From: a virus | DNA length: 24,680 bases | Virus record (IMG/VR): IMGVR_UViG_3300005753_000011 | Span: 1 to 24,680 of that record | Reading direction: 5' to 3' (one strand) | Shown here: positions 1,767-24,680 of the stretch, piece by piece | Position numbering within the stretch: position 1 is the stretch's first letter | How the letters are laid out: each line of letters opens with the position of its first letter | The notes under the pieces: generated by a model | Told to the model about the DNA's origin: nothing | The model's database searches: none | What the model saw: the letters and a program-made list of their open reading frames with translations, nothing else | Program-made: the position numbers and the translations under genes

Positions 1767-1816
1767 GGGATATCTCCATTAAATTTGACTACTTAATTGA
1801 AGTCGTCGTGACACCT

Positions 1817-1858
1817 TAGCGACCGAAAACATATAAATACACTAAAGGGCTTTAGTAA
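1817..1858 (-). promoter_or_regulatory. Candidate late promoter/activator site, copy A
   Basis: Positions 1837-1858 are identical to 13513-13534 (22 bases). They contain the dyad ACTAAAGGGCTTTAGT (1841-1856). Read on the minus strand, the element is followed after exactly 13 bases by GTCGCTAA (1823-1816), which matches 6 of 8 positions of the sigma-28 -10 consensus GCCGATAA. Both copies precede minus-strand late genes. If GTCGCTA is the -10 element, the dyad centre lies at about -38, close to where Mor/C-type activators bind in Mu. Assignment to Mor and the phage sigma factor is inference. Confidence 0.6.
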
Positions 1859-4512: not shown

Positions 4513-5145
4513 TCATACAGGTGCAGCAAAGCCGAATTTGAACGATGGAATATTTATTGTGTTTGCATCCAAAATGGCCTGATCTGTCAGCTCATTGGTT
4601 ACCATCAACAGACGTGGAGTGCCACCGTCGTAGATTGCCAGATGTAGATCCTCATAGATTTCATAGGTCGATGTGTTGTCAGGTTGCGTATTCCAGTTCG
4701 ACGGTATCGTAATTGTGTCGCCTGTGTTCGACACAATCGTCTGCGTGGCTTGCTCTGCGCCGAAACCCGATGTGATCTTAATCACTTTTCCGGCATACGC
4801 AGCAGCCACCCATGATTTTAATGTATCAGTCAGCGTGTTCGACGTTGCACTACTGACATTACCAGTCTCGACCAATGGCACCGCGACTTGTGCTGTTCCA
4901 TTCTTTGCAATAATGGTAATTTCACGTCCACCCCCGGTTTTATTTCCTAGTGTCACATCGGCCTGTAACAATATAATTTCGTCGGAGATGCGTTTACCTG
5001 TCGGGAACAGCGTGGCTGCTTCACTTTGTGTCACTGGTTCACCAGCGCAAACCACCAGACGTAAAATACCACCGCCCCAGTTTGCCTCTACACCGATTTG
5101 TTCGAGGCCTTTATCAAGTATGTCGTTATTAAACATTTTACCCAT
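4513..5145 (-). CDS. Putative virion protein following tail spike, 210 aa
   Basis: Function not recognised. The protein is beta-rich and Thr/Ser/Asn-rich, without signal peptide or membrane segment. The start (NNDILDKGLEQI...W) recalls small structural proteins of other phages that open with 'LYDKGRE...W', but this is a weak likeness. The start overlaps the tail-spike stop by 8 bases, and GAGGA lies upstream of the ATG at 5145, so the two proteins are probably made together. A tail-spike accessory, collar or decoration protein is plausible; nothing in the sequence decides. Confidence 0.6.
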   Translation of the reverse strand: MGKMFNNDILDKGLEQIGVEANWGGGILRLVVCAGEPVTQSEAATLFPTGKRISDEIILLQADVTLGNKTGGGREITIIAKNGTAQVAVPLVETGNVSSATSNTLTDTLKSWVAAAYAGKVIKITSGFGAEQATQTIVSNTGDTITIPSNWNTQPDNTSTYEIYEDLHLAIYDGGTPRLLMVTNELTDQAILDANTINIPSFKFGFAAPV

Positions 5146-8100
5146 TTAAAATTCCTCGCCAGAAAAGATCGTGTGTATAGCGTGCAGTGGTGCCGTCTAG
5201 ATGTGTCACATCAACGAATATCTTCATAATATCTCCTTCAAATGCCGTTGAAGTTTCAATCTTGGTAACCAGGCCTCTGTCAACAACGTGTTTTAATGCA
5301 GCGGAAGCACGCGACTGAACATCATTCAATGCACCCTGATTAGCAACGGCACGCGATGAAAGCCAGATATCCGATCCAATCTGATCACCCTCTATCAATG
5401 CAAACGAGTCACCCCACCAGCCACGCACATCGCCTTTGCCTCCGGGCGTAACAGCATCATCATGCGCGTGCTTGTCTGTAAACAAGCTAGTATGAATCAA
5501 AAGACCCAGTCCATTATCCGTTGGTGCAGGCGCATCGCTTACCACGGCAGGAATAACAACGGGCTGATTGATTTGTATGTCGTCAACAACGCCGGCACTG
5601 TAAGTATCACCAGCAGTCAAGACGTGCGTTCCTGCGGTCGAAGTAAATATAGCCATCAACCGCATATCTGTGTCAGCGTTTTGTAATTTGGCTTGAATGT
5701 CGCCATTGCTATCAGGTTTAGTCACCCAATAAGCCTTACGTGTGCCTGGGTCAAAATACTGATCGTCGGCATCACCGTTTTTTCGAATATTGAATGCATT
5801 ATCATACGAGGCGCACACATCAAAAAAGTAACCTATAGCATTTGCTGGTAGCGTTGTTATTGGCTGATAACTGGCTGTTATGGCTGGCCCATAATCTATA
5901 GGTGAAACGTAATAAATAACTCCGCCAATCATATAACCTAATAAACGTACATTAGTCTTTGCTGAATCTAAATAAACATCGAATGACTTTGCACTATCAA
6001 CACCTACGCCACCGCCAATGTGACGTTGAATAACAGAGTTTATATTTGTGTATGCCGCTGCTGAATCACCAGGTCGAAGACCAACGGTAAGGCCATTACT
6101 GACAGTGTCAATTTCTAACAACGCAAAAATTGGCACGTCTGACCCTGCTTGCGCAGTAATGTCAACCGTGTACCAGCCAGGCACAGTATATGTCGGCGTT
6201 ACATCAATCGGCGTTGATAAGAATATGGATTCACCACGAAAATAACCCACTATTTCAAATGTGCTGTTTACAGTGTCGTTTGTATACGTCTGAAATGTAT
6301 CCTTTCCAGTATCGCCTAATCCGACATAATGCATTGTATGAGTAGATGTAGATAAATTAGACGTTGGCGCGAAAGTATCGCCAAAACGCCTTACTCCACA
6401 AGATATTTGTCCACCTGCTGTGTTAGATACTCTAACCATCACTCCTGTTACGTTGGGGTCACTGACTATCGTTGATTTCCACGCGCTGTTTGTCGTAGGT
6501 GAGCAATCAACAAAATCAGCTGAGTCGAGCAGCAAGACGCCGTTTGACGAAATCGGTGCAAGCGGCGCAAAAGTGTCAGTTTTTATTAAAACTGAATTTA
6601 ATCTTGCAATATTGTTTACCCAACTGCCGTGTTGAAATCCACTGTATTTTCCTTGCGTGATAGTGCTATCTTGCCAAACAATCTTGTTTACGCCATCCAT
6701 CTTGAGTGTCAAATTTGACCCTTCTATTTTAAGCGTTGCAATATAAGTAAGCGCCGTGTTAATAGTAAAATTAACCTGTACCAGCAGCGTATCAATATTT
6801 GCTATTCTTTTTAATAACTTCAGGGAATTGACGCCTGAGCGTATAACTACGAAATAAGTAGTTTCTAGTCCTGACGCTAAACCATCATGTCTGACAAATA
6901 AATGCAGTCTATTATCTGTAAGTCCAGGATAAAATGGCGCTTCTATTTCTTGATTATTCGATCCTGCGTAATAAATTAAGCCATTATTTGCAGCGTTAAA
7001 CTTCAGTGCACCGGTATCCAATACAGGACTAGCCAATACTGCTGCACTACCCTGACCGCTTGAATCTATCTCTAGCTGACTCGCGGTCGCAAGAGCGCCA
7101 TCAGTTCCGACGAAATCATCACTGATTCTAGTCGTCCACACAGCCGACCCAGAGCCTGCCCCATATCTAAATGCCCCAACAGATGTGCCGTAAGCGTTCC
7201 CATCCGGGTCTAATTCAGAGTGAGTCTCCCCGACATGTGTTCCGATCGGGATATGAAAATCTGGCGGTGTACCAGTTTCATTCGCGAAAGTGTCTTTAGT
7301 GGCGAAATTACCAGTAAAATTATCCCCTAAAGTTGCAGCTTCAGCACCTGCGATAGTGTAAACTGTGCCCTTGTAATTTATTAAATTTACTACGCCCGAT
7401 CTAAAAAGAGTGTTTTTTCTCCATGTATTTCCAGTTATACCAACATAATTATTAACAATAATTTGTCTGTCATAGCCAGTCGGAGCTCCGCAATTTAAAA
7501 TAATATTATTCTCACCGGTATTATTAATTATACCGGCTCCACCATTATCGCTCAGTCTGATTCCACCAGCATCGCAGTTTGTAAGTACATTGCAGAAAAT
7601 CAATAAATTTCTTATTGTGTCAGATCCGGCTTGTGTAAATAAATTTAATCCTGCTCCATTATTTGTTTCCCTGTTTTTATTTGAAATAGCATTGCCATAA
7701 TAAAGAGTAGCTTGCATGCCTGTGTGCGTATGTGATGGGCAGTCATCTTCTATATTGTAGCGAATAAAGTTACCAGATGCGTTGTTTGTCGCACCGCTAA
7801 CTGTACCGCCGAATTGCCAACCACGACCATGATTCGCATTAGGTGCAGAAAATTCATTGTACGATATTATATTGTTTTTAAAGTCTGTAGCGCTATCTAC
7901 TATTATTCCCGCGTGTGTGTAATCGATAGTCTTGTTATTGTTGTAATTAGAATTAGTCGACTGCTTACTTAAAGCTAGTGCATCTTTGTTACCGTCATCA
8001 ACGTTTTCAATTTCACCACCATTTAAATTGAAGTCAAATATATTGTTTGTAACAGCAGCATTATCAGTAGCGAAATTACCGAATAAAACGGATCGTCTGA

Positions 8101-8962
8101 ATTGATTACTAAATCTATTATTGTTAATTATGGTGTTATCTAAGGTATTGCCATTGTTCTCCCAGATATTTAGCGGACCACCGTGCAACTCAACACCATC
8201 TAATTTGAAGCCGCCTTTAGCTGCACCGTTGGGGTTTTTTACAACGATTAAATCTTTATCAAACCCAACAACTTCAACGCCAATCGTTAGTAATGACGGA
8301 TCACCGTAAATATACAGCTCAGACCCTGACTGGAACCACTTATCTGTGGCATTTACACCGGCGACATTTGCAGAGTTTGATTGAGATTCATCGTCTAATA
8401 ATATTCTTGCGGTGCCAGACAAATCGACAGAGCTGACAGTATTATCGAGCGTTCCTGAATCGAGCGTAAAATCCAGTCTTCCTAGACTACTTACAGTATT
8501 GTCTGGCGAAGTAATCGTCCCATACCACGGGCCACCTGATCCATTTAATCTAATTCGTCGACCGAATCTATACAAAGGATCTTTAGCATTGGCTCCCGAA
8601 ATATTAATTCTCGTCTGGCTGACAAAAGACGCCGTGGAAGAATACCGACCCCAATTTGAATATGTTTTTTTATAAACCGAACCAGAATGTAAGGAAAACC
8701 CGGTGACAAGATCATTGTTTGTATATATCGGTCTCGCGCCAGTGTTGTACGGCTCGATAGAGAACTGCACGCTTGCAGCCACGTCGAATATTTGCCAAGC
8801 GGCAAACGCAGCATTTCTAAACCGGCTTCCAGATTTGAGAAAGAAAGAACCACCGCTGACAAGGAATGAGGTTTTATTTTCTGGTCTTTTATACGGACTG
8901 AGATCAGAGTCACCTGTATTCAAAGTGTCATCGCCTAACTCGAAATCAAACCATTTACTCAT
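5138..8962 (-). CDS. Giant tail spike with beta-helix and C-terminal Mu gp46-like baseplate domain
   Basis: A 1274-residue protein. Residues ~240-530 are Asn/Gly-rich short strands with repeated N-N-x-I/F patterns, typical of a right-handed parallel beta-helix as in tail spikes and pectate-lyase-like proteins. Residues ~610-790 look like a lectin/concanavalin-like beta sandwich (SDDFVGTDGALATASQ). Several beta-rich segments follow. Residues ~1149-1274 resemble the Mu gp46 baseplate family: LLIHTSLFTD, PGGKGDVRGWWGD, QIGSDIWLSSR, then an alpha/beta end. Gp46 is normally a separate protein of about 150 residues in the baseplate gene cluster. The fusion could anchor a receptor-binding or glycan-degrading spike to the baseplate. 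Neighbours overlap on both sides: ATGA with the upstream gene, 8 bases with the downstream one. Enzymatic activity cannot be read from the sequence. Confidence 0.8.
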   Translation of the reverse strand: MSKWFDFELGDDTLNTGDSDLSPYKRPENKTSFLVSGGSFFLKSGSRFRNAAFAAWQIFDVAASVQFSIEPYNTGARPIYTNNDLVTGFSLHSGSVYKKTYSNWGRYSSTASFVSQTRINISGANAKDPLYRFGRRIRLNGSGGPWYGTITSPDNTVSSLGRLDFTLDSGTLDNTVSSVDLSGTARILLDDESQSNSANVAGVNATDKWFQSGSELYIYGDPSLLTIGVEVVGFDKDLIVVKNPNGAAKGGFKLDGVELHGGPLNIWENNGNTLDNTIINNNRFSNQFRRSVLFGNFATDNAAVTNNIFDFNLNGGEIENVDDGNKDALALSKQSTNSNYNNNKTIDYTHAGIIVDSATDFKNNIISYNEFSAPNANHGRGWQFGGTVSGATNNASGNFIRYNIEDDCPSHTHTGMQATLYYGNAISNKNRETNNGAGLNLFTQAGSDTIRNLLIFCNVLTNCDAGGIRLSDNGGAGIINNTGENNIILNCGAPTGYDRQIIVNNYVGITGNTWRKNTLFRSGVVNLINYKGTVYTIAGAEAATLGDNFTGNFATKDTFANETGTPPDFHIPIGTHVGETHSELDPDGNAYGTSVGAFRYGAGSGSAVWTTRISDDFVGTDGALATASQLEIDSSGQGSAAVLASPVLDTGALKFNAANNGLIYYAGSNNQEIEAPFYPGLTDNRLHLFVRHDGLASGLETTYFVVIRSGVNSLKLLKRIANIDTLLVQVNFTINTALTYIATLKIEGSNLTLKMDGVNKIVWQDSTITQGKYSGFQHGSWVNNIARLNSVLIKTDTFAPLAPISSNGVLLLDSADFVDCSPTTNSAWKSTIVSDPNVTGVMVRVSNTAGGQISCGVRRFGDTFAPTSNLSTSTHTMHYVGLGDTGKDTFQTYTNDTVNSTFEIVGYFRGESIFLSTPIDVTPTYTVPGWYTVDITAQAGSDVPIFALLEIDTVSNGLTVGLRPGDSAAAYTNINSVIQRHIGGGVGVDSAKSFDVYLDSAKTNVRLLGYMIGGVIYYVSPIDYGPAITASYQPITTLPANAIGYFFDVCASYDNAFNIRKNGDADDQYFDPGTRKAYWVTKPDSNGDIQAKLQNADTDMRLMAIFTSTAGTHVLTAGDTYSAGVVDDIQINQPVVIPAVVSDAPAPTDNGLGLLIHTSLFTDKHAHDDAVTPGGKGDVRGWWGDSFALIEGDQIGSDIWLSSRAVANQGALNDVQSRASAALKHVVDRGLVTKIETSTAFEGDIMKIFVDVTHLDGTTARYTHDLFWRGILNG

Positions 8963-12989: not shown

Positions 12990-13482
12990 TGACTGCGTTC
13001 TCCTTTTTGTGAAGACCCATAATATATTTCGTTTTCTTTTCTAGCTTGTGTTTGGTTTTAACCCGATATGCTGTCTTGACTTGACGACGCCTTTCTCGTC
13101 TAGGAGAGAACGTACCTACATGCATCCACGCACCGTATTCAAGAATTAACTGATCAAACGGAACACCAAGACTGATAACCGCCTTGCATAACTGCATAGG
13201 GGTGCGAGTATATGAAATTACATCAGCGCAAAGGCCGTGGATATGACCAGAACTGCGCGACCCACGCGCCAGTTTATTAACAGCTAAAGGTCTAAAACCA
13301 GAAGATAGGTGTAATGGACCTTCAGAATCACGCAACGGCTGCAAGATAGATTCGCAAAGGTATTTCAAATTACGAAAATCCTGGCTATCCTCTTTTACGA
13401 CAATATCAATGCCATGTCGGGCAGCGATCTGTGAGTGAGTGAACTCATCAAGGTAGAAATTTTTGCTCAGTTGAATACGCAT
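12982..13482 (-). CDS. Endolysin, M15 family peptidase
   Basis: A 166-residue peptidase, probably an L-Ala-D-Glu or D-Ala-D-Ala type zinc peptidase that cuts peptidoglycan cross-links. Visible ligands follow the M15 pattern: His80 (SSGH), Asp87 (LCADV), Glu115 (LILEYG) and His121 (WMHVG), with the conserved SGFR at 61-64. The N-terminal LSKNFYLDEFTHSQIAARHGI is typical of the family. The last ~40 residues are very basic (KTKHKLEKKTKYIMG), perhaps a surface-binding tail. No signal peptide, so export depends on the holin downstream. It is the first gene of the late operon; no Shine-Dalgarno sequence is seen before the ATG, which lies ten bases after the GTCGCTA element. Confidence 0.88.
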   Translation of the reverse strand: MRIQLSKNFYLDEFTHSQIAARHGIDIVVKEDSQDFRNLKYLCESILQPLRDSEGPLHLSSGFRPLAVNKLARGSRSSGHIHGLCADVISYTRTPMQLCKAVISLGVPFDQLILEYGAWMHVGTFSPRRERRRQVKTAYRVKTKHKLEKKTKYIMGLHKKENAVNA

Positions 13483-13492
13483 GCTGCGATAC

Positions 13493-13534
13493 TAGCGACA
13501 AGAATCAAAGAGATACACTAAAGGGCTTTAGTAA
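13493..13534 (-). promoter_or_regulatory. Candidate late promoter/activator site, copy B
   Basis: The 22 bases at 13513-13534 are identical to the element at 1837-1858, again with GTCGCTA (13499-13493, minus strand) exactly 13 bases further on. The dyad ACTAAAGGGCTTTAGT lies at 13517-13532. It heads the lysis-to-MuF operon. Identity across the dyad plus fixed spacing to a second conserved block, in otherwise unlike flanks, is what a shared promoter would look like. Mor (dyad) and sigma-28-like (-10) recognition is inferred. Confidence 0.62.
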
Positions 13535-13558
13535 CGGGAGCAGGGAGTGTATTATAAT
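13530..13558 (+). promoter_or_regulatory. Candidate promoter of the secreted accessory gene
   Basis: A perfect TATAAT (13553-13558) lies 30 bases before the GTG start of the plus-strand gene. The expected -35 position (13530-13535, AGTAAC) is poor and overlaps the dyad of the late element. A weak -35 next to a dyad suggests control by whatever binds that dyad. Confidence 0.45.
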
Positions 13559-13588
13559 TATCCACTCGAATCACAGAAGGACAAGATC

Positions 13589-14119
13589 GTGAAATATATC
13601 ATAAAATGCAGTTTGTTTATTTTTATTACGTTTTTCACTACACTGGTATTAGCCGATCAGCCGGAGTATCAGTTGCAGCTAACCTCTGCCGAGAGACCAG
13701 TGAACCCAGTTTACATCAATAAGAATCTCACGCGCCAATACATGAAAATAGCTGAGAGCATGGGATTTAATTTCAATCACTTGTTTGGATACAGAGAGTT
13801 TTGGTTGATGACTGTCGATAATAATATCGGCACAAAAGAAGGATCTGAAAATCTGCTTTATTCCACTGGTGGTAATATCAATGATAACGAAGCGTCGTTA
13901 AGAAATGGTAAATCAAAAGATAAATGGGAATTGACCTATTACTCAAATTACGACATCACATGGATAAAACGAGTGGTCAGTATAAAAGACAAGTCATACG
14001 TAAAAATATTAAAAATAGCAAAAGGCCGAGTGCCAAATCTTAATCTTCGAGAGTCACAACACAAGATTGTTCCAGCAAAGCCTCAAGAAAAATTTCTAGG
14101 TTGGGGAGTAAAAAAGTAA
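13589..14119 (+). CDS. Putative secreted/periplasmic accessory (moron-like) protein
   Basis: 176 residues from a GTG start supported by AGAAGGA eight bases upstream; a frame extension to ATG at 13547 has no such site and would spoil the signal peptide. Residues 1-22 form a signal peptide (KYIIKCSLFIFITFFTTLVLA, cut likely before DQ). The mature part has mixed charge, with aromatic strands such as GYREFWLMTVDNN and KWELTYYSNYDITW. No family recognised. The gene lies alone on the plus strand between the late operon and the repressor, with its own -10 box, as is typical for lysogenic conversion genes. No clear terminator separates it from the convergent repressor gene. Confidence 0.65.
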   Translation: MKYIIKCSLFIFITFFTTLVLADQPEYQLQLTSAERPVNPVYINKNLTRQYMKIAESMGFNFNHLFGYREFWLMTVDNNIGTKEGSENLLYSTGGNINDNEASLRNGKSKDKWELTYYSNYDITWIKRVVSIKDKSYVKILKIAKGRVPNLNLRESQHKIVPAKPQEKFLGWGVKK

Positions 14120-15814: not shown

Positions 15815-16645
15815 ATGTCCAAAAAAATTGTACCTGACACAAACAATCCTATCGATAAGAGTAGCAAGCGTCTCGCAGAGATAGACGCAACATACGCCCT
15901 TAGTCAAGAATACGACTTTCTCCGAATAGCTAATGAAGGTCGGTTTCACTTTTCAAACGCTGCTGAACATTTCCTCCACGGAGGCAGGTGCGCCATTTTG
16001 ATAAAGGAGCACGAACCGCATGGCAGATTTATTGAAGGACTAAAAATAATGGGCCTCGCCGAACGGGCTGCGCAGAAGGCAATGCAAGCGACTTACAAAT
16101 TCGCAGGTGATCGCGCTGCGCTCACCTCTCTCGGTAAAACAAAAATGCTAGAGCTGCTAACTGAAGACGACGAGAAACTTTCCGTACTGTCAAAGGGTGG
16201 CACGCTCGCTGGTCATACGATGGACGAATATGATCGCATGACAAAGTCTGAAATGAGAATAGCACTTCGCAAATCACGCGAGCAAGAAAAACAATCGACA
16301 GAAACACATGAAAAAATTCTCGCAAAAAAAGATAAAAAAATAAACCAGCTCGATAAGAAGCTCATGAAGTCACAACCTTGGCCGGATCGAGTCGAGGACA
16401 TCAACGCTGAGATTGCAAAAGCCGCCACAAAATTAATAGCCGGATGCGAGCAACTCCAACAGTTACGTGAAGTTATTTTTGCAGAGGAATTCGAAGCTCA
16501 CGAAAGCGAAGAAGCACTCAACAATATGTGTGTCAGATATTTCAAGGAAGTCGAATCAGCATCAGAACACGTCGCAATGTTGATTAAAGACTGCAACGAC
16601 AATGTTAGCGGTTATACAGACAGGCAAATACAGGACCTCGTCTAA
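15815..16645 (+). CDS. DUF3102-like protein upstream of transposase
   Basis: 276 residues. About 30-95 (LRIANEGRFHFSNAAEHFL, then LIKEHEPHGRFIEGLKIMGLAERAAQKAM) resembles the DUF3102 pattern, a HTH-containing family often found in phages and plasmids. Residues ~145-190 are a charged coiled coil (KSREQEKQSTETHEKILAKKDKKINQ). Start ATG with a strong CGGAGGA. It ends one base before the transposase start codon, so the two are surely co-expressed; a helper in transposition or partition-like DNA binding is conceivable but unproven. Confidence 0.55.
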   Translation: MSKKIVPDTNNPIDKSSKRLAEIDATYALSQEYDFLRIANEGRFHFSNAAEHFLHGGRCAILIKEHEPHGRFIEGLKIMGLAERAAQKAMQATYKFAGDRAALTSLGKTKMLELLTEDDEKLSVLSKGGTLAGHTMDEYDRMTKSEMRIALRKSREQEKQSTETHEKILAKKDKKINQLDKKLMKSQPWPDRVEDINAEIAKAATKLIAGCEQLQQLREVIFAEEFEAHESEEALNNMCVRYFKEVESASEHVAMLIKDCNDNVSGYTDRQIQDLV

Positions 16646-16646
16646 C

Positions 16647-18434
16647 ATGCCTATTTCAAACAATCCGGCCATCATCGCGCTACAAGTAATTACGCAGCTA
16701 GCGAAACGACTTGATGCAACGCCACACAATAGTCGCGGTGAGATTATATTAAATTTTGCAACGCAATTCGGTTGGAGCAATGCAAAAGTCTATCGCCAGC
16801 TAAAAACAGTAGGCTGGTCAAGTTGCCGTAAATCTCGATCAGATAAAGGGCAAACATCTCAGGATCCAGAAGCCCTGACGCACCTATCTGCAGCAGTCAG
16901 GCTCGGTGTACGTAAGAACGGAAAAATAACCATGCAAACACCGAACGCACGCAGCATGCTCTCGGCTAATGGAAGACAATTCGCAGTCGGCAACGCTAGA
17001 CTTAACACGTTAATGAAAGAACGTTGCATGGACATTAAAAAACAAAAACAGCCCAGTGCCTATCAGCCACAAAAATCATTGTATCCAAACCACGTACATC
17101 AAGTCGATCCTTCATTGTGTTTGATTTATTATTTAAAAGACGGCTCACAAAAAATACTCGGTGATGATGAAATATATAAAAACAAACCCGAAAATATCGA
17201 GCGATTAGGCAGCTTGAAAGTCTGGCGCTATGTCTTAACAGATCACTACAGCTCAACCATTATCGTTCGTTATTATCAAGCCAAGGGCGAAACGCAAGAA
17301 AACCTCTTTGACTTTTTATTATACGCATGGAAAAAATTAGGTGATCGGGTGTTCCACGGCGTGCCTAAAATATTGTCCTGGGACAAAGGCAGCGCAAACA
17401 CTGCCAAGGCAATAGCATGCGCACTCTGTGCATTGGATGTCGAAGCGATTACACACGAAGCAGGCAACCCACGCGCCAAAGGCTCTGTCGAGCAATCAAA
17501 CAACCTGGTAGAAAAACTTTTCGAATCACGCCTTCGATATGAGCCTGTTAAAAATATTGATGAAATAAATTATGCGGTCGAAAGTTGGTACAACGCCTAC
17601 AATTCTGATTCGATACCATATTATGATGCAAAGCTAAGTCGACGCTTCATGGCAGAACCAAAAGCACGCTACAGCATCTGGCAAATAATAAACAAGAATC
17701 AATTACGCATACTACCTGATGAGGAACTGTGCCGTTATCTGCTAAGTGCTAAACCCGAAGAAAGAAAAGTGCGTGCTGATTTGAGCGTATCGTTTAAGCA
17801 CCCCAATAAAAAACGTACATCCTATTACGACATTAGTCACATAGACGGCGTCTATCCACGCGCAATAATAAAAGTCAGCCCGCTGATCTACGGCGAAGCG
17901 CAGATAATCGTTTATGTTGAAAATTATCAAGGTATCGAGCAAACATTTATTATTGATGCTATTGAAGCAGATTCATTCAGTGGCTTTGCTAATAACGCAG
18001 CCATCATCGGTGAAGAATACAAATCACAACCAGACACCGTGATTGAACAAGCAGGCAAAGCTGCAGATCGTGCAGCGTTCCCAAACAAAGATGAAGACGA
18101 AATTAAAAAAGAAAAAAATAAAAACCACGCACCTTTCAACGGCACCATTGATGCACATTCACACTTGCGCAACGTCAGAACGCCTGATTACATGCAACGC
18201 CCAGGCAGTGAGCTCTCAATACCTGATCGTAAACACACAGAGATCAAGCCCCTAACAAATATCGAAGCATGCAAGCGACTGATATCTGAACTAGGTCGAA
18301 TCGACGGCGTGAACTATCACGACATTGTCAGTCAGTATTATCCAGAGGGTGTGCCGCTATCCGAATTTGATGAGCTGGTTAAACGTATCACACAACCCGT
18401 AACAGCATTGTCTGTTATCAACGGTGGAAAATAA
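16647..18434 (+). CDS. Phage transposase A (DDE, D-35-E, rve core)
   Basis: 595 residues from the ATG at 16647; an earlier in-frame ATG (16602) lies inside the previous gene and lacks a ribosome site. The N-terminal ~140 residues are a basic helical DNA-binding region. The catalytic core shows Asp154 (NHVHQVDPS), Asp246 (ILSWDKGSA) and Glu282 (GSVEQSNN), with exactly 35 residues between the last two, the classic DD(35)E spacing of retroviral-integrase-like enzymes. MuA, by contrast, has 55 there, so this is closer to the Tn552-like/BcepMu type. A beta-rich domain (about 380-440) and a charged linker follow. It would join phage ends to target DNA for integration and replicative transposition, with the AAA ATPase downstream as partner. 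Confidence 0.9.
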   Translation: MPISNNPAIIALQVITQLAKRLDATPHNSRGEIILNFATQFGWSNAKVYRQLKTVGWSSCRKSRSDKGQTSQDPEALTHLSAAVRLGVRKNGKITMQTPNARSMLSANGRQFAVGNARLNTLMKERCMDIKKQKQPSAYQPQKSLYPNHVHQVDPSLCLIYYLKDGSQKILGDDEIYKNKPENIERLGSLKVWRYVLTDHYSSTIIVRYYQAKGETQENLFDFLLYAWKKLGDRVFHGVPKILSWDKGSANTAKAIACALCALDVEAITHEAGNPRAKGSVEQSNNLVEKLFESRLRYEPVKNIDEINYAVESWYNAYNSDSIPYYDAKLSRRFMAEPKARYSIWQIINKNQLRILPDEELCRYLLSAKPEERKVRADLSVSFKHPNKKRTSYYDISHIDGVYPRAIIKVSPLIYGEAQIIVYVENYQGIEQTFIIDAIEADSFSGFANNAAIIGEEYKSQPDTVIEQAGKAADRAAFPNKDEDEIKKEKNKNHAPFNGTIDAHSHLRNVRTPDYMQRPGSELSIPDRKHTEIKPLTNIEACKRLISELGRIDGVNYHDIVSQYYPEGVPLSEFDELVKRITQPVTALSVINGGK

Positions 18435-18738: not shown

Positions 18739-18753
18739 CAGGAGCAGTTGAAT

Positions 18754-20064
18754 ATGAACACCATCGCCAAAAATGCAGTAGAAAGACCTATCCCCGTAAA
18801 CGCGCACGGCAGCGCAGATGATGTTACGGATTATAAGGAGGCTAAAAAAGCCATCACTAATATGAAAGGGGAAAAACAGTACATGCCAATTCTATTAAAA
18901 CAGGTATTGGAGGACTACGGAATCACACAGGTAAAGTTATGCCAATCAGTTAACTACACACACAAAAATGCATACAAAAAACTGTCTGAATCCGCGCTCA
19001 ATCAAATACTGAACTGGGATACCTGGCCAAAAAACTGTAAACCAGAACTTATCCGAGATCTTATTGAAGCATCACTTGTTCAAAAAGGTGTGCCGAAATT
19101 AGCTCTCATCAGACTGTGGGACACAGATATTGACGGCGCGCACAAACCCGTGCGTTACAAAAAAAATAAACGCTCTATTGCCAGAACAATTCAACTTCCG
19201 GAGAATCAAATGCTAAGTGAAAATGCGAAAAAACACTTCCGTCTAAATAAAGACCCATTCGTCAATGATATACATTCATACAAAGACGTATTTTTATCAG
19301 CAGACCAGCGCTACATCAGTGAGTCGATGTACCAGACAGCAAAACACGGCGGCTTCCTTGCGGTTGTTGGTGAGTGCGGTGCAGGTAAGACCACGTTGCG
19401 GCGTGACTTGCTCGAACGCATAGAACGCGAAAACCTCAATGTAACTGTCATACAGCCTCGCATCATTGACAAAGCCAGGCTCAGTGCAGGTGCAATCTGC
19501 GAAGCAATAATCGAGGATATTTCATCAGAAAAGCCACGCTCATCTCTGGAGCACAAAGCGCGACAAATCGAACGATTACTAAAAGGCTCAAGCCGAGCTG
19601 GCAATGTCCATGTGCTGATTATCGAGGAAGCACACGATATGTCTGTCACTACCTTGAAATACCTAAAGCGATTTTGGGAACTCGAAGATGGCCATAAAAA
19701 ATTACTATCGATTATTTTGGTCGGGCAGCTGGAATTAAAAAACACGCTCGACGAAAAACAAAACTGGGAAGCACGCGAAGTTATCAGACGTTGTGAAGTC
19801 GCCGAACTGCTACCACTCAACAATGATCTGGAAAAATATCTTGATCTGAAATTTGAGCGCGTAGGCAGAAGTCTGACAGACATTTTCGAAGACGATGCTT
19901 ACAGTGCAATTCGCGAACGGCTATCACTCCGCAATCGAGGACACGAGCACGCCGTCAATATGATGTTCCCTCTCGTCGTCAATAACGCAGTCACAAAAGC
20001 AATGAATCTTGCTGCAGACATTGGCCTACCTAAAATCAACGCAGACCTTATTAAGGAGGTGTGA
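18754..20064 (+). CDS. Transposition AAA+ ATPase (B-type, ExeA-like)
   Basis: 436 residues from the ATG at 18754; AGGAG lies ten bases upstream, and a TTG six bases earlier is less likely. An N-terminal HTH-like part (about 42-95, PILLKQVLEDYGITQVKLCQSVNY) precedes the AAA+ domain: entry motif HFRLNKDPF (161-169), Walker A GECGAGKT (206-213), Walker B VLIIEEAH (287-294) and a sensor-like ILVGQ. The ExeA-like HFxLxxDPF entry separates it from classical MuB and matches the BcepMu-type partner. It would bind target DNA, activate the transposase and give target immunity. Confidence 0.87.
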   Translation: MNTIAKNAVERPIPVNAHGSADDVTDYKEAKKAITNMKGEKQYMPILLKQVLEDYGITQVKLCQSVNYTHKNAYKKLSESALNQILNWDTWPKNCKPELIRDLIEASLVQKGVPKLALIRLWDTDIDGAHKPVRYKKNKRSIARTIQLPENQMLSENAKKHFRLNKDPFVNDIHSYKDVFLSADQRYISESMYQTAKHGGFLAVVGECGAGKTTLRRDLLERIERENLNVTVIQPRIIDKARLSAGAICEAIIEDISSEKPRSSLEHKARQIERLLKGSSRAGNVHVLIIEEAHDMSVTTLKYLKRFWELEDGHKKLLSIILVGQLELKNTLDEKQNWEAREVIRRCEVAELLPLNNDLEKYLDLKFERVGRSLTDIFEDDAYSAIRERLSLRNRGHEHAVNMMFPLVVNNAVTKAMNLAADIGLPKINADLIKEV

Positions 20065-22377: not shown

Positions 22378-22611
22378 ATGAAAATGACTCGAGATTGTTT
22401 TATAAAAAAATACTGCGATGCATTCAAAATGAATGAGCAGGATTTCCATGAAAGTATTGTAGCACTACCCTGTGCTTGTCGTCGGCGAGGTTGCCGTGGG
22501 TGGGCCGCTGTTTCAGACAATCCAGCATCAATTAAATTCCATAATGACTTATATGCGCCAACAATCAACAGAAAAATAGAAAACAATATATTGAGGAAAA
22601 AATGTGGCTAG
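22378..22611 (+). CDS. Small Cys-motif early protein, 77 aa
   Basis: Residues 30-42 (ALPCACRRRGCRGW) hold Cys32, Cys34 and Cys39 with a following GW, a pattern that recurs in small proteins of Mu-like phages upstream of GemA. Cys7 and Cys13 could add metal ligands. The start follows the preceding stop by two bases. The end overlaps the GemA start by 8 bases. Function unknown. Confidence 0.6.
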   Translation: MKMTRDCFIKKYCDAFKMNEQDFHESIVALPCACRRRGCRGWAAVSDNPASIKFHNDLYAPTINRKIENNILRKKCG

Positions 22612-23068
22612 TCTAAATGATATAAGGAAAAAAGAACTCGCCATCATCCACATCGGCGCTGCAAAACTTGGCCTCAAGACCAAAGACGACGATTCTGCCT
22701 ATCGGGAAATGTTGATGTCAGTTTGTAACGTTAAATCAGCGGCTAAACTAGACGCAGTTGGCCGTAACAAAGTCATCATGCACTTGAAAAAATGCGGCTT
22801 CAAGATGCAGAGGAGAACTGGAAACAATATTAATATAACAGGCGACAGAGAACGCCTGGTATACAAAATAACTGCTCTATGGAAACTACTCGCAGGCGCA
22901 GGTGTTATTACAGACCCGTCTGAAAAATCGATGATTAAGTGGTGCGCCAGAATCACAAAAAAACCAGCTCTTCAATGGTCAACAAAATCCAGTCTGATCA
23001 AATGTGTCGAGGGACTAAAACAGTGGTGCAGCCGCACCGGTGTAACTTATTTGGACAGTAAAAAATAA
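22604..23068 (+). CDS. gemA: GemA regulator (Mu gp16 family)
   Basis: 154 residues, GTG start with GAGG upstream. N-terminal KKELAIIHIGAAKLGLKTKDDDSAYREML is the DUF1018/GemA signature, followed by SAAKLDAVGRNKVIMHLKKCGFK and a C-terminal HTH-like part. In Mu, GemA influences host gene expression and DNA supercoiling. It lies directly upstream of Mor, overlapping by one base (TAATG), as in other Mu-type phages. Confidence 0.88.
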   Translation: MASLNDIRKKELAIIHIGAAKLGLKTKDDDSAYREMLMSVCNVKSAAKLDAVGRNKVIMHLKKCGFKMQRRTGNNINITGDRERLVYKITALWKLLAGAGVITDPSEKSMIKWCARITKKPALQWSTKSSLIKCVEGLKQWCSRTGVTYLDSKK

Positions 23069-23436
23069 TGTCTTACCACACTGATAAGCCAGAATTTCAC
23101 ACAGACATAGTCATCTTCGCATCCGCCAAGCTGCACGAAATATCGGGCCTCGAACCTGATATGTGTCAAAGCATCGCAGAAGCCCTTGCTGACGAGATCA
23201 GACGCAACTGGGGTGGACAATCAACCTACATCGCAAAAGGCCAGGCGCTCGACATCTCTGCCCGAGATAAAGAAATATATCTTATGTACAACAAACATAA
23301 CATGCACCAGGTCATTAAAAAATTCGGTTATACAGAGCAGTGGATCCATCAAATAATAAAGCGTGTACATGCCTCAGAAATGGAATGCAAACAGCCAGAC
23401 ATGTTTAGTGGCTATCTAAGTAAGGAGGTAGTTTGA
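23068..23436 (+). CDS. mor: Mor-family middle/late transcription activator
   Basis: 122 residues. The GGQSTYIAKG motif (49-58), RDKEIYLMYN (66-75) and C-terminal HTH QVIKKFGYTEQWIHQIIKRV (81-100) are hallmarks of the Mor/C family. These dimers bind dyads upstream of weak-minus-35 promoters and recruit RNA polymerase. Start overlaps the GemA stop; stop overlaps the TTG of the next gene. Candidate targets are the two identical dyads at 1841-1856 and 13517-13532. In Mu, Mor turns on C, which then activates late genes; here no C is seen, but a sigma factor follows. Confidence 0.9.
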   Translation: MSYHTDKPEFHTDIVIFASAKLHEISGLEPDMCQSIAEALADEIRRNWGGQSTYIAKGQALDISARDKEIYLMYNKHNMHQVIKKFGYTEQWIHQIIKRVHASEMECKQPDMFSGYLSKEVV

Positions 23437-23603
23437 AAAAACCACATTCAGCAGCAACTAAAAAAATACGGAGAACCCTCGGTTGGTATGTAGCCCTAGT
23501 AATGATTCTTCTACTTGCATCGTATGGGCTGTCATTTAAAAAAGAATGTACCAGATACGAAAAGTTGTCTTATCTGCCAGATATTGACGTTTGTGTTGAA
23601 TAA
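23433..23603 (+). CDS. Small single-membrane-span protein between Mor and sigma
   Basis: 56 residues with a TTG start that overlaps the Mor stop (TTGA) and has a very strong AAGGAGG upstream. A basic start (MKKPHSAATKKIRRTLG) precedes one membrane segment (about 18-34, WYVALVMILLLASYGLS), then a short tail with Cys39 and Cys54 that would face the periplasm. No family recognised. Possible roles: membrane signalling, holin-like/antiholin, or modulation of the sigma factor encoded next. Confidence 0.65.
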   Translation: MKKPHSAATKKIRRTLGWYVALVMILLLASYGLSFKKECTRYEKLSYLPDIDVCVE

Positions 23604-23620
23604 ATTATCGGAGTAAATAA

Positions 23621-24337
23621 ATGAGTGCAATTATAAAAATAAAAGATGAACAAAGCGTATTGATAGAACAGTACAGCCCGTTGGTTAACCGCATAGCAAA
23701 TTTCCTAATTTTACCTTTCAAAGAAATAATGCAAGTCAGTGACCTAATACAAGTAGGAATGATAGGGTTGATTAAAGCGTCTGATAACTATGTCGAGACC
23801 AAAGGCGCTACCCGCGACACTTATTACAATATATGGATACGCGGTGCAATGCTCGATGAAATAAGACGAAATGTATGGTCACCTCGATCAGTCGGCTTAA
23901 AATTACGAATGATTGACAGCGCAAAATCAAATGTAGAAAATTCCGCATTCCACATCGCCAGTGACCGAGATATTGCAAAAGAGCTTCGCCTTAGCCTGCC
24001 AGAATATTCAAAAGTACTGGCAGATTCAGTTGCACAAACTCAAATTGGTTACGAAGACGTAAATATGAAAGAAAGTTATTTTTCTTCAGGTTTAACCGAC
24101 ACTACACCTGGCCCATCTGACAGCCTACAGAACGAAGACTACAAGCGAAGCTTTGCCACCCTTATATCCGAGTTACCTAAACAGGAACGCAAAGTAATAT
24201 CTCTTTATTACTATCAGGATCTGGACCAAAAGCAGATCAGCCAGATTATGGACGTAAGTGAAAGTCGCATAAGTCAAATCAGAAAATCCGCTCTTGAACG
24301 ACTAAAAAAACACAAAAAACAGTTTATTGAAGGCTAA
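23621..24337 (+). CDS. Phage-encoded sigma-70 family factor, FliA (sigma-28)-like
   Basis: 238 residues, the size of FliA. Region 2 spans about 15-86 with DLIQVGMIGLIKA and TYYNIWIRGAMLDEIRR (67-83), followed by the FliA-like linker VWSPRSVGLKLR. Region 3 is about 88-165. Region 4 is 175-235, with the -35-binding HTH QKQISQIMDVSESRISQIRK (203-222). FliA-type factors direct RNA polymerase to promoters of the TAAAGTTT-N11-GCCGATAA kind. GGAG eight bases before the ATG. As last but one gene of the early operon, directly after Mor, it is well placed to switch transcription to late genes. A host-derived flagellar sigma acquired by the phage is a likely origin. Confidence 0.9.
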   Translation: MSAIIKIKDEQSVLIEQYSPLVNRIANFLILPFKEIMQVSDLIQVGMIGLIKASDNYVETKGATRDTYYNIWIRGAMLDEIRRNVWSPRSVGLKLRMIDSAKSNVENSAFHIASDRDIAKELRLSLPEYSKVLADSVAQTQIGYEDVNMKESYFSSGLTDTTPGPSDSLQNEDYKRSFATLISELPKQERKVISLYYYQDLDQKQISQIMDVSESRISQIRKSALERLKKHKKQFIEG

Positions 24338-24340
24338 ATA

Positions 24341-24529
24341 ATGAACAATATAAATATTGAATTAATTAATAATCAGATGATTTTTGCAGCTAAAAAAGCC
24401 ATTGACCAGGCTTTAGAAAATATAGGGAAAACCGGCAAATTCCCTAAATCACTCAGCATTAATATTACGCTCTCATTCGAGAATGAAATAACGCCATCCT
24501 TTATCGAATTCAGAGGCAAGATTACCTAA
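24341..24529 (+). CDS. Small protein after sigma factor, 62 aa
   Basis: The ATG lies three bases after the sigma stop, with GAAGG inside the end of the sigma gene as ribosome site. N-terminal amphipathic helix (NQMIFAAKKAIDQALENIGK), then two beta strands (SLSINITLSFENE; SFIEFRGKI). It does not look like FlgM. A sigma partner or unrelated early protein are equally possible. Confidence 0.5.
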   Translation: MNNINIELINNQMIFAAKKAIDQALENIGKTGKFPKSLSINITLSFENEITPSFIEFRGKIT

Positions 24530-24680
24530 TTACGACCATATTTTCATTTTCACTATTTTAAACACTCTTTAAAAAAAACGTCCCGTATAACCCCGTTTCA
24601 TACCTAATCATCCCACTTATCGCACGCGATGCCCTATAGTTATCTCACGTCTGTTCAGAATGCTATCTTTTCTCACAGTG
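24530..24680. other. Gene-free right edge, possible approach to phage terminus
   Basis: No coding frame is visible. The stretch contains CGTTTCAT (24594-24601), like the first half of a Mu end-binding site, and three related TTATCTCACR-type words (see the repeat entry). In divergent BcepMu-like phages the transposase-side genes read toward a genome end, so a terminus is expected around here. No TG/CA end or target duplication can be confirmed within the window. Confidence 0.35.
24617..24677 (+). repeat. Short direct repeats near right edge, candidate transposase sites
   Basis: TTATCGCACG (24617-24626), TTATCTCACG (24640-24649) and TTTTCTCACA (24668-24677) are similar ten-base words in the same orientation, 23 and 28 bases apart. 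About two helical turns between copies resembles arrays of transposase-binding sites at the ends of transposable phages. The words are short, so chance is not excluded. Confidence 0.35.

Follow-up and report, generated by a model that had tools for sequence, protein, structure and literature searches.

Gene layout of the phage fragment

The stretch of DNA analysed here (the window) is an IMG/VR record of 24,680 bp taken whole, and it represents a fragment of a Mu-like phage. By Pfam and PHROG assignment it encodes MuA, MuB, Gam, GemA and Mu-type head genes, which places it among the Mu-like transposable phages. The late genes run leftward from 13.48 kb in the order M15-type lysin, holin, terminase, portal, MuF, a second promoter (1.8 kb) and head protease, the last of which is truncated by the left end of the window. 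The early genes run rightward from 14.68 kb in the order small HTH gene, MuA, MuB, Gam, GemA, Mor, a 56-aa ORF, a sigma factor and a 62-aa ORF. The main features on this side are:

16602–18434, plus strand: MuA-type transposase (phrog_310, 1.3e-68)
18748–20064, plus strand: MuB-type transposition ATPase (phrog_296, 4.7e-65)
22604–23068, plus strand: gemA, directly 5' of mor (PF06252, 9.8e-26)
23068–23436, plus strand: mor, Mor-family late activator of 122 aa (PF08765, 8.9e-26; phrog_532; Mu Mor structure 1rr7, 1e-6)
23433–23603, plus strand: 56-aa ORF with one hydrophobic segment and a TTG start overlapping the mor stop (from the sequence)
23621–24337, plus strand: FliA-family (sigma-28-type) sigma factor of 238 aa with regions 2, 3 and 4 (family models and structures)
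24341–24529, plus strand: 62-aa ORF, final gene of the operon (ORF call; no known family)
24579–24646, plus strand: conserved right-terminal sequence, likely a MuA-binding array (alignment to the post-mor sequence of relative G001/L110)

A preliminary description of this DNA had reported a Mor activator followed by a sigma-28-like factor in one operon. Family models confirmed that both genes are real and in place, and the genes from mor through the 56-aa ORF and the sigma gene to the 62-aa ORF lie on one strand with small gaps or overlaps, forming the end of an early operon that is predicted from the sequence. The 56-aa ORF between mor and the sigma gene was absent from that description and had no Pfam or PHROG match.

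Two further genes were observed outside this operon. The minus strand at 5138–8962, between the terminase and portal genes, encodes a protein of 1274 aa that is probably a tail spike and carries a GP46 domain at its C-terminus (PF07409, 5.6e-18); this is an odd location for a tail gene. An ORF of 190 aa whose N-terminus is hydrophobic and signal-like (13547–14119, plus strand) matched no Pfam family, and it diverges from the late promoter beside the repressor and is possibly a lysogeny gene.

The Mor activator and its paired operators

The Mor ORF scored 90.4 bits against PF08765, whose gathering cut-off is 24.9, and matched phrog_532 ('late transcriptional activator') at 4e-27 and the structures of Mu Mor and C at 1e-6 and 8e-6, respectively. 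The succession of two such proteins known from Mu, Mor and then C, was not found, as a single Mor/C protein is encoded in the window, which does not extend into the left part of the genome. The 16-bp dyad ACTAAAGCCCTTTAGT has an exact match at only two sites of the window, each upstream of a late operon:

13517–13532, minus strand: candidate Mor operator ACTAAAGCCCTTTAGT of the lysis/head late promoter (core 13519–13530; homologous pairs in sigma-less relatives)
13489–13499, minus strand: −10 region GTCGC-TAGTAT of this late promoter (promoter comparison)
1841–1856, minus strand: candidate Mor operator ACTAAAGCCCTTTAGT of the second late promoter (core 1843–1854; exact match)
1813–1823, minus strand: −10 region GTCGC-TAAGGT of the second late promoter (promoter comparison)

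Comparison of both promoter regions revealed dyad pairs at the homologous two late promoters in 11 relatives that lack the sigma gene. Palindrome-only searches for operators in other phages were too noisy, unlike this comparison of homologous regions. Across these relatives and the window the operators mostly follow TAAM-N4-KTTA, with the core TAAA-N4-TTTA in G025, G026, G038, G043 and G045 and a sequence near it in G023, TAAC-N4-GTTA in G001, G007, G047 and G048, and TGAC-N4-GTCA in G006. A hexamer nAnnnT begins 30 or 31 bases past the dyad centre at all 24 of 24 sites (background 9.7%, binomial p 5e-25, the sites being less independent than this value supposes because the phages are related); G050, whose operator pair was unclear, was left out of these sites. 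No operator pair emerged from the two-promoter comparison in G014 and G041, and in L190, a relative with 64% MuA identity, the late promoter was not assignable. In the relatives searched as whole contigs, no more than two Mor operators were found, and the window carries this pair as well.

The arrangement at these promoters, a dyad operator in the place of the −35 element with a −10 element downstream, is that of Mor/C-activated promoters, and the operator class covaries with the Mor recognition helix. Five of the six TAAA phages have glutamate at position 2 of this helix, against none of the five TAAC or TGAC phages, a comparison in which the Mor of G023 was not recovered and G025, G026 and G038 are close kin. 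The recognition helix of the window's Mor matches that of sigma-less phages sharing the TAAA operator. We infer that Mor binds the paired dyads; because operator class and recognition helix covary, Mor is taken as the late switch, and we conclude from these sequence comparisons that it would act directly at both late promoters in this phage group. The preliminary description had further proposed that the phage replaces the Mor–C cascade by Mor plus its own sigma factor. This found no support: nothing appears to have been replaced, because the sigma-less relatives likewise have, as far as seen, a single Mor/C activator, with operators at the same two promoters. The relatives without a tblastn match to Mor had, in those checked, a C-like gene (phrog_836) or a divergent Mor gene at the equivalent position.

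The paired operators at two late promoters, present in a dozen phages including L111, L114 and L110, amount to a readable Mor recognition code, and they offer a simple late-control rule for the group and a handle on how Mor reads DNA. The predicted start of the first late promoter (13480–13494 in the window) coincides with or adjoins the ATG with which the first gene begins, similarly in G043, G001 and G025, and no clear ribosome-binding site was seen there in several phages; late mRNAs from this promoter are possibly leaderless.

The sigma factor is a diverged relative of FliA

A sigma factor is the subunit that directs RNA polymerase to its start sites. Residues 8–231 of the phage protein aligned with FliA models and structures, covering regions 2–4 at full length without a region 1.1. 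The protein scored 192.3 bits (1e-56) against NCBIfam PRK06986 (curated cut-off 201) and 188.4 bits against TIGR02479 (curated cut-off 189.6), and because both scores lie just under the curated cut-offs, we call it a diverged FliA-family relative and not FliA itself. Its match to the P. aeruginosa FliA structure 9wsm reached 2.6e-43. Regions 2, 3 and 4 had all been read in it before; regions 2 and 4 pass their Pfam cut-offs and the FliA models align through region 3, but region 3 alone is weak and falls below its cut-off (18.2 bits vs 25.3). AlphaFold2 gave no more than a fair model (pLDDT 69, pTM 0.36); its top PDB match is sigma-28, and as a prediction it adds little past the fold class.

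A phylogeny against host FliA, which the preliminary description had suggested, nested the phage sigma among gammaproteobacterial FliAs, but on a branch of 3.27 that carries a long-branch warning. Identity to the host FliAs of 369 genomes is at most 47%. The closest host FliA (47%, L376) is flanked by an ORF resembling oligoribonuclease and one for a membrane protein, with no evident flagellar cluster around it, and several host genomes carry two FliA-like genes.

The sigma ORF is intact and much diverged from host FliAs, and the divergence is unevenly distributed. Of the columns with 95% or higher conservation in host FliAs, 9/12 are kept in regions 2.1–2.2, 16/20 in 2.3–2.4 and 3/3 in region 3, so that regions 2 and 3 are mostly preserved (28/35), together with 5/6 in region 4.1 and 10/16 in region 4.2, where 6/16 are lost. 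The residues D79, R82 and R89, which correspond to E. coli D81, R84 and R91, are all retained; in E. coli FliA, Koo et al. reportedly found in 2009 that these three residues read the CG and GC of GCCGATAA. Region 2.3 has changed relative to host FliAs (F65R, A69Y and R72W), D85 is also lost, and the tryptophan at R72W is the residue type that sigma-70 has at this position. The helix of region 4.2 that reads the −35 element is altered (ESRISQIRKSA vs ESRVSQLHSQA, with IRKS for LHSQ) and does not conform to the helix for a TAAA −35 element.

The sigma gene lies inside the phage

Of the relatives whose right flank is preserved, G001/L110 is the closest, and there mor is followed by no more than 190 bp; the contigs of relatives L191 and L192 end directly after mor. 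Within the last 100 bp of the window, positions 24579–24646 align with this 190-bp right end of L110 with a score of 34, against a maximum of 25 in 300 shuffles, in the blocks CGTCCC.TAT ... ATCCCA.TTATC ... TATAGTTATCTC. The gap between mor and the sigma gene gave no alignment with the L110 right end above chance (score 18 vs shuffle 23). Since the right-end sequence comes after the sigma gene and not before it, the right end of the phage lies beyond this gene, and the 56-aa ORF, the sigma gene and the 62-aa ORF are, on this alignment, an insertion between mor and the phage end.

Occurrence of the arrangement

A tblastn search of 50,697 phage records returned 11 FliA-like matches, six of them in large Bacillus phages and the others in unannotated gut contigs, and the two of those gut contigs that were inspected contained nothing matching the MuA, Mor or GemA of the window; none of the 50,697 records was a Mor phage with a FliA-like sigma. 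A FliA-like sigma was likewise absent at 80 IMG/VR Mor loci, at 160 loci of the nearest MuA relatives (genomes and IMG/VR), from 35 virus records of relatives searched whole and around the additional Mor matches obtained from 369 genomes of the same class; about 100 of the 175 Mor matches had at least 0.9 kb of sequence downstream. About 50 other IMG/VR contigs carry a FliA-like sigma, with no Mor or MuA in the stretches examined. Among the IMG/VR contigs, L093–L098 have FliA, at the contig end in several of them, without Mor or MuA; one groups closely with E. coli FliA, and these contigs may run into host DNA. Single-sequence scans of viral contigs, with the sigma or Mor only, gave no matches, and alignment scans did work. 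The other FliA-like sigmas of phages are found, among those examined, only in unrelated phages. Family models confirmed the mor–sigma pair here, and none was found in the other Mor phages examined, in agreement with the earlier impression that the arrangement had not been described in Mu-type phages. The record is a singleton, and unsampled relatives are possible. The papers searched, with most subscription journals outside the search, contained no description of a transposable phage that has a sigma-28-type factor.

Does the sigma factor act at the late promoters?

The two late promoters of the window share GTCGC at −17 to −13 in all five bases, where the promoter pairs of other phages usually share one or two and at most four, and this element stands where sigma-28 reads GCCGA. 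Summed over both promoters, the match to the sigma-28 −10 sequence GCCGATAA is higher than in any other pair (11/16, next best 9); 3 of 276 random promoter pairs reach 11, giving a p of about 0.01 that is post hoc and comes from two sites only. The G and CG of the element match positions read by the retained D79, R82 and R89. Similar bases occur in sigma-less promoters, presumably by chance (TCGC in G006b, GCCG in G048a). A scan of the window for FliA consensus promoters (TAAA-N15-GCCGATAA, and GCCGATAA) stayed at chance level with no excess. The reading of GTCGCTAA as proof of a sigma-28 −10 element was withdrawn, as sigma-less relatives show nAnnnT at the same offset. The two-key late switch suggested in the preliminary description is a possible reading: the shared GTCGC matches part of the sigma-28 extended −10, but the promoters also fit the ordinary nAnnnT pattern of Mor promoters. 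Because the hexamers TAGTAT and TAAGGT follow this pattern of the sigma-less relatives, host sigma-70 should suffice. As only two Mor operators were found, the two late promoters are the known ones open to the phage sigma.

Our tentative reading, which we hold at somewhat below even probability, is that Mor and the phage sigma act jointly at these two promoters. A Mu-like phage would have acquired a gammaproteobacterial FliA-family sigma gene and placed it between mor and the right end, so that Mor and the sigma would appear together after early transcription. The sigma would bind host core polymerase, Mor on its operator would replace the −35 element, and the sigma would read the extended −10 GTCGC-TAnnnT at the same two promoters, alongside host sigma-70 or in its stead. 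Region 2 retains the sigma-28 residues for the CG step, and the altered region 4.2 suits promoters without a −35 element. The place of the sigma gene in the operon after mor, the right end lying beyond it and the FliA similarity count for joint action, and activation of the E. coli aer promoter by CRP together with sigma-28 provides a precedent (PMC2859248); the accessory position of the gene and its singleton status count against it, as does the requirement of Mu Mor for the C-terminal region of sigma-70, which is attributed to a paper cited in PMC4390567. The strict two-key form, in which the late promoters need both Mor on the dyad and the phage sigma on GTCGC-TAnnnT, is unlikely. If true, it would be the first transposable phage to pair a Mor-type activator with its own sigma in the late switch.

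Joint action is possible, and roughly level with it stands a host-directed action, whereby Mor and host sigma-70 run the late genes as in the relatives and the sigma is moron-like cargo for the host side, acting during infection or lysogeny on flagellar, chemotaxis or other FliA-type host promoters, or diverting core polymerase; the preliminary description had also suggested that host flagellar promoters are perhaps captured. We give host-directed action a slightly lower probability than joint action. The late promoter layout is that of the sigma-less relatives, the Mor recognition helix agrees with theirs where the operator is TAAA, the gene occupies the accessory right end, all relatives examined lack it, and the phage has no excess of FliA consensus promoters. 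But the phage protein departs from host FliAs in the region 4.2 recognition helix and in region 2.3 (F65R, A69Y and R72W) and sits on a very long branch, so that faithful host FliA specificity is unlikely, and the GTCGC common to both late promoters would be left unexplained. The long branch and the six lost positions of region 4.2 would suit a decoy or decaying import that binds core polymerase or partners such as host FlgM without specific transcription; the intact ORF, the tight operon and the retention of most conserved positions of region 2 with D79, R82 and R89 make this improbable. That the sigma gene is host DNA beside a prophage end, or that the contig is a metagenome assembly chimera, is very improbable. 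FliA is a normal host gene, the closest relatives have only the phage end after mor, and the arrangement is known from one contig, but the genes overlap or abut from mor through the 62-aa ORF, flagellar neighbours are absent, the sigma is far from every host FliA found, and the idea of flanking host DNA was rejected on the conserved right-end sequence after the gene. With its own sigma beside the activator, the phage offers a two-component system whose activator and sigma are testable apart.

Comparison with known systems

The textbook example of late genes controlled by activators that borrow sigma-70 comes from the Mu-type phages, and a phage of this type that encodes a sigma of its own next to the activator would show the late switch rewired in evolution. 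Late control in transposable phages is evidently replaceable, because Leptospira transposable prophages lack Mor/C (PMC8705779). At the Mu promoter Pm, a 16-bp Mor dyad centred at −43.5 replaces the −35 element (PMC4390567). The window resembles this system in its Mor-family protein, the dyad in the −35 place and the weak −10 hexamer, with the dyad centred near −42.5 when −7 is assigned to the T of TAnnnT; unlike in Mu, the presumed operators belong to two late operons of the opposite strand, C is missing from the window and mor is followed by a sigma gene. The nearest systems are G001/L110, a Mu-like prophage in a Thiobacillus denitrificans MAG, and IMG/VR contig L191, which are syntenic (MuA 57%, TerL 65% for L191, Mor 38%) and carry the Mor operator pair at the two corresponding promoters; L110 differs in that mor is directly followed by the right end, without a sigma gene.

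The sigma shares regions 2–4, the D81, R84 and R91 residues (E. coli numbering) and up to 47% identity with gammaproteobacterial host FliA, but it is phage-encoded, scores just under the cut-offs, has lost signature residues of regions 2.3 and 4.2 and has no flagellar genes around it. T4 gp55 and SPO1 gp28 are phage-encoded sigmas as well, and T4 late promoters use a co-activator. The window is like these phages and like the roughly 50 IMG/VR contigs with FliA-like genes in that the sigma is encoded by the phage, whereas the T4- and SPO1-type sigma phages are not transposable and the FliA-like IMG/VR contigs showed no Mor or MuA in the stretches examined.
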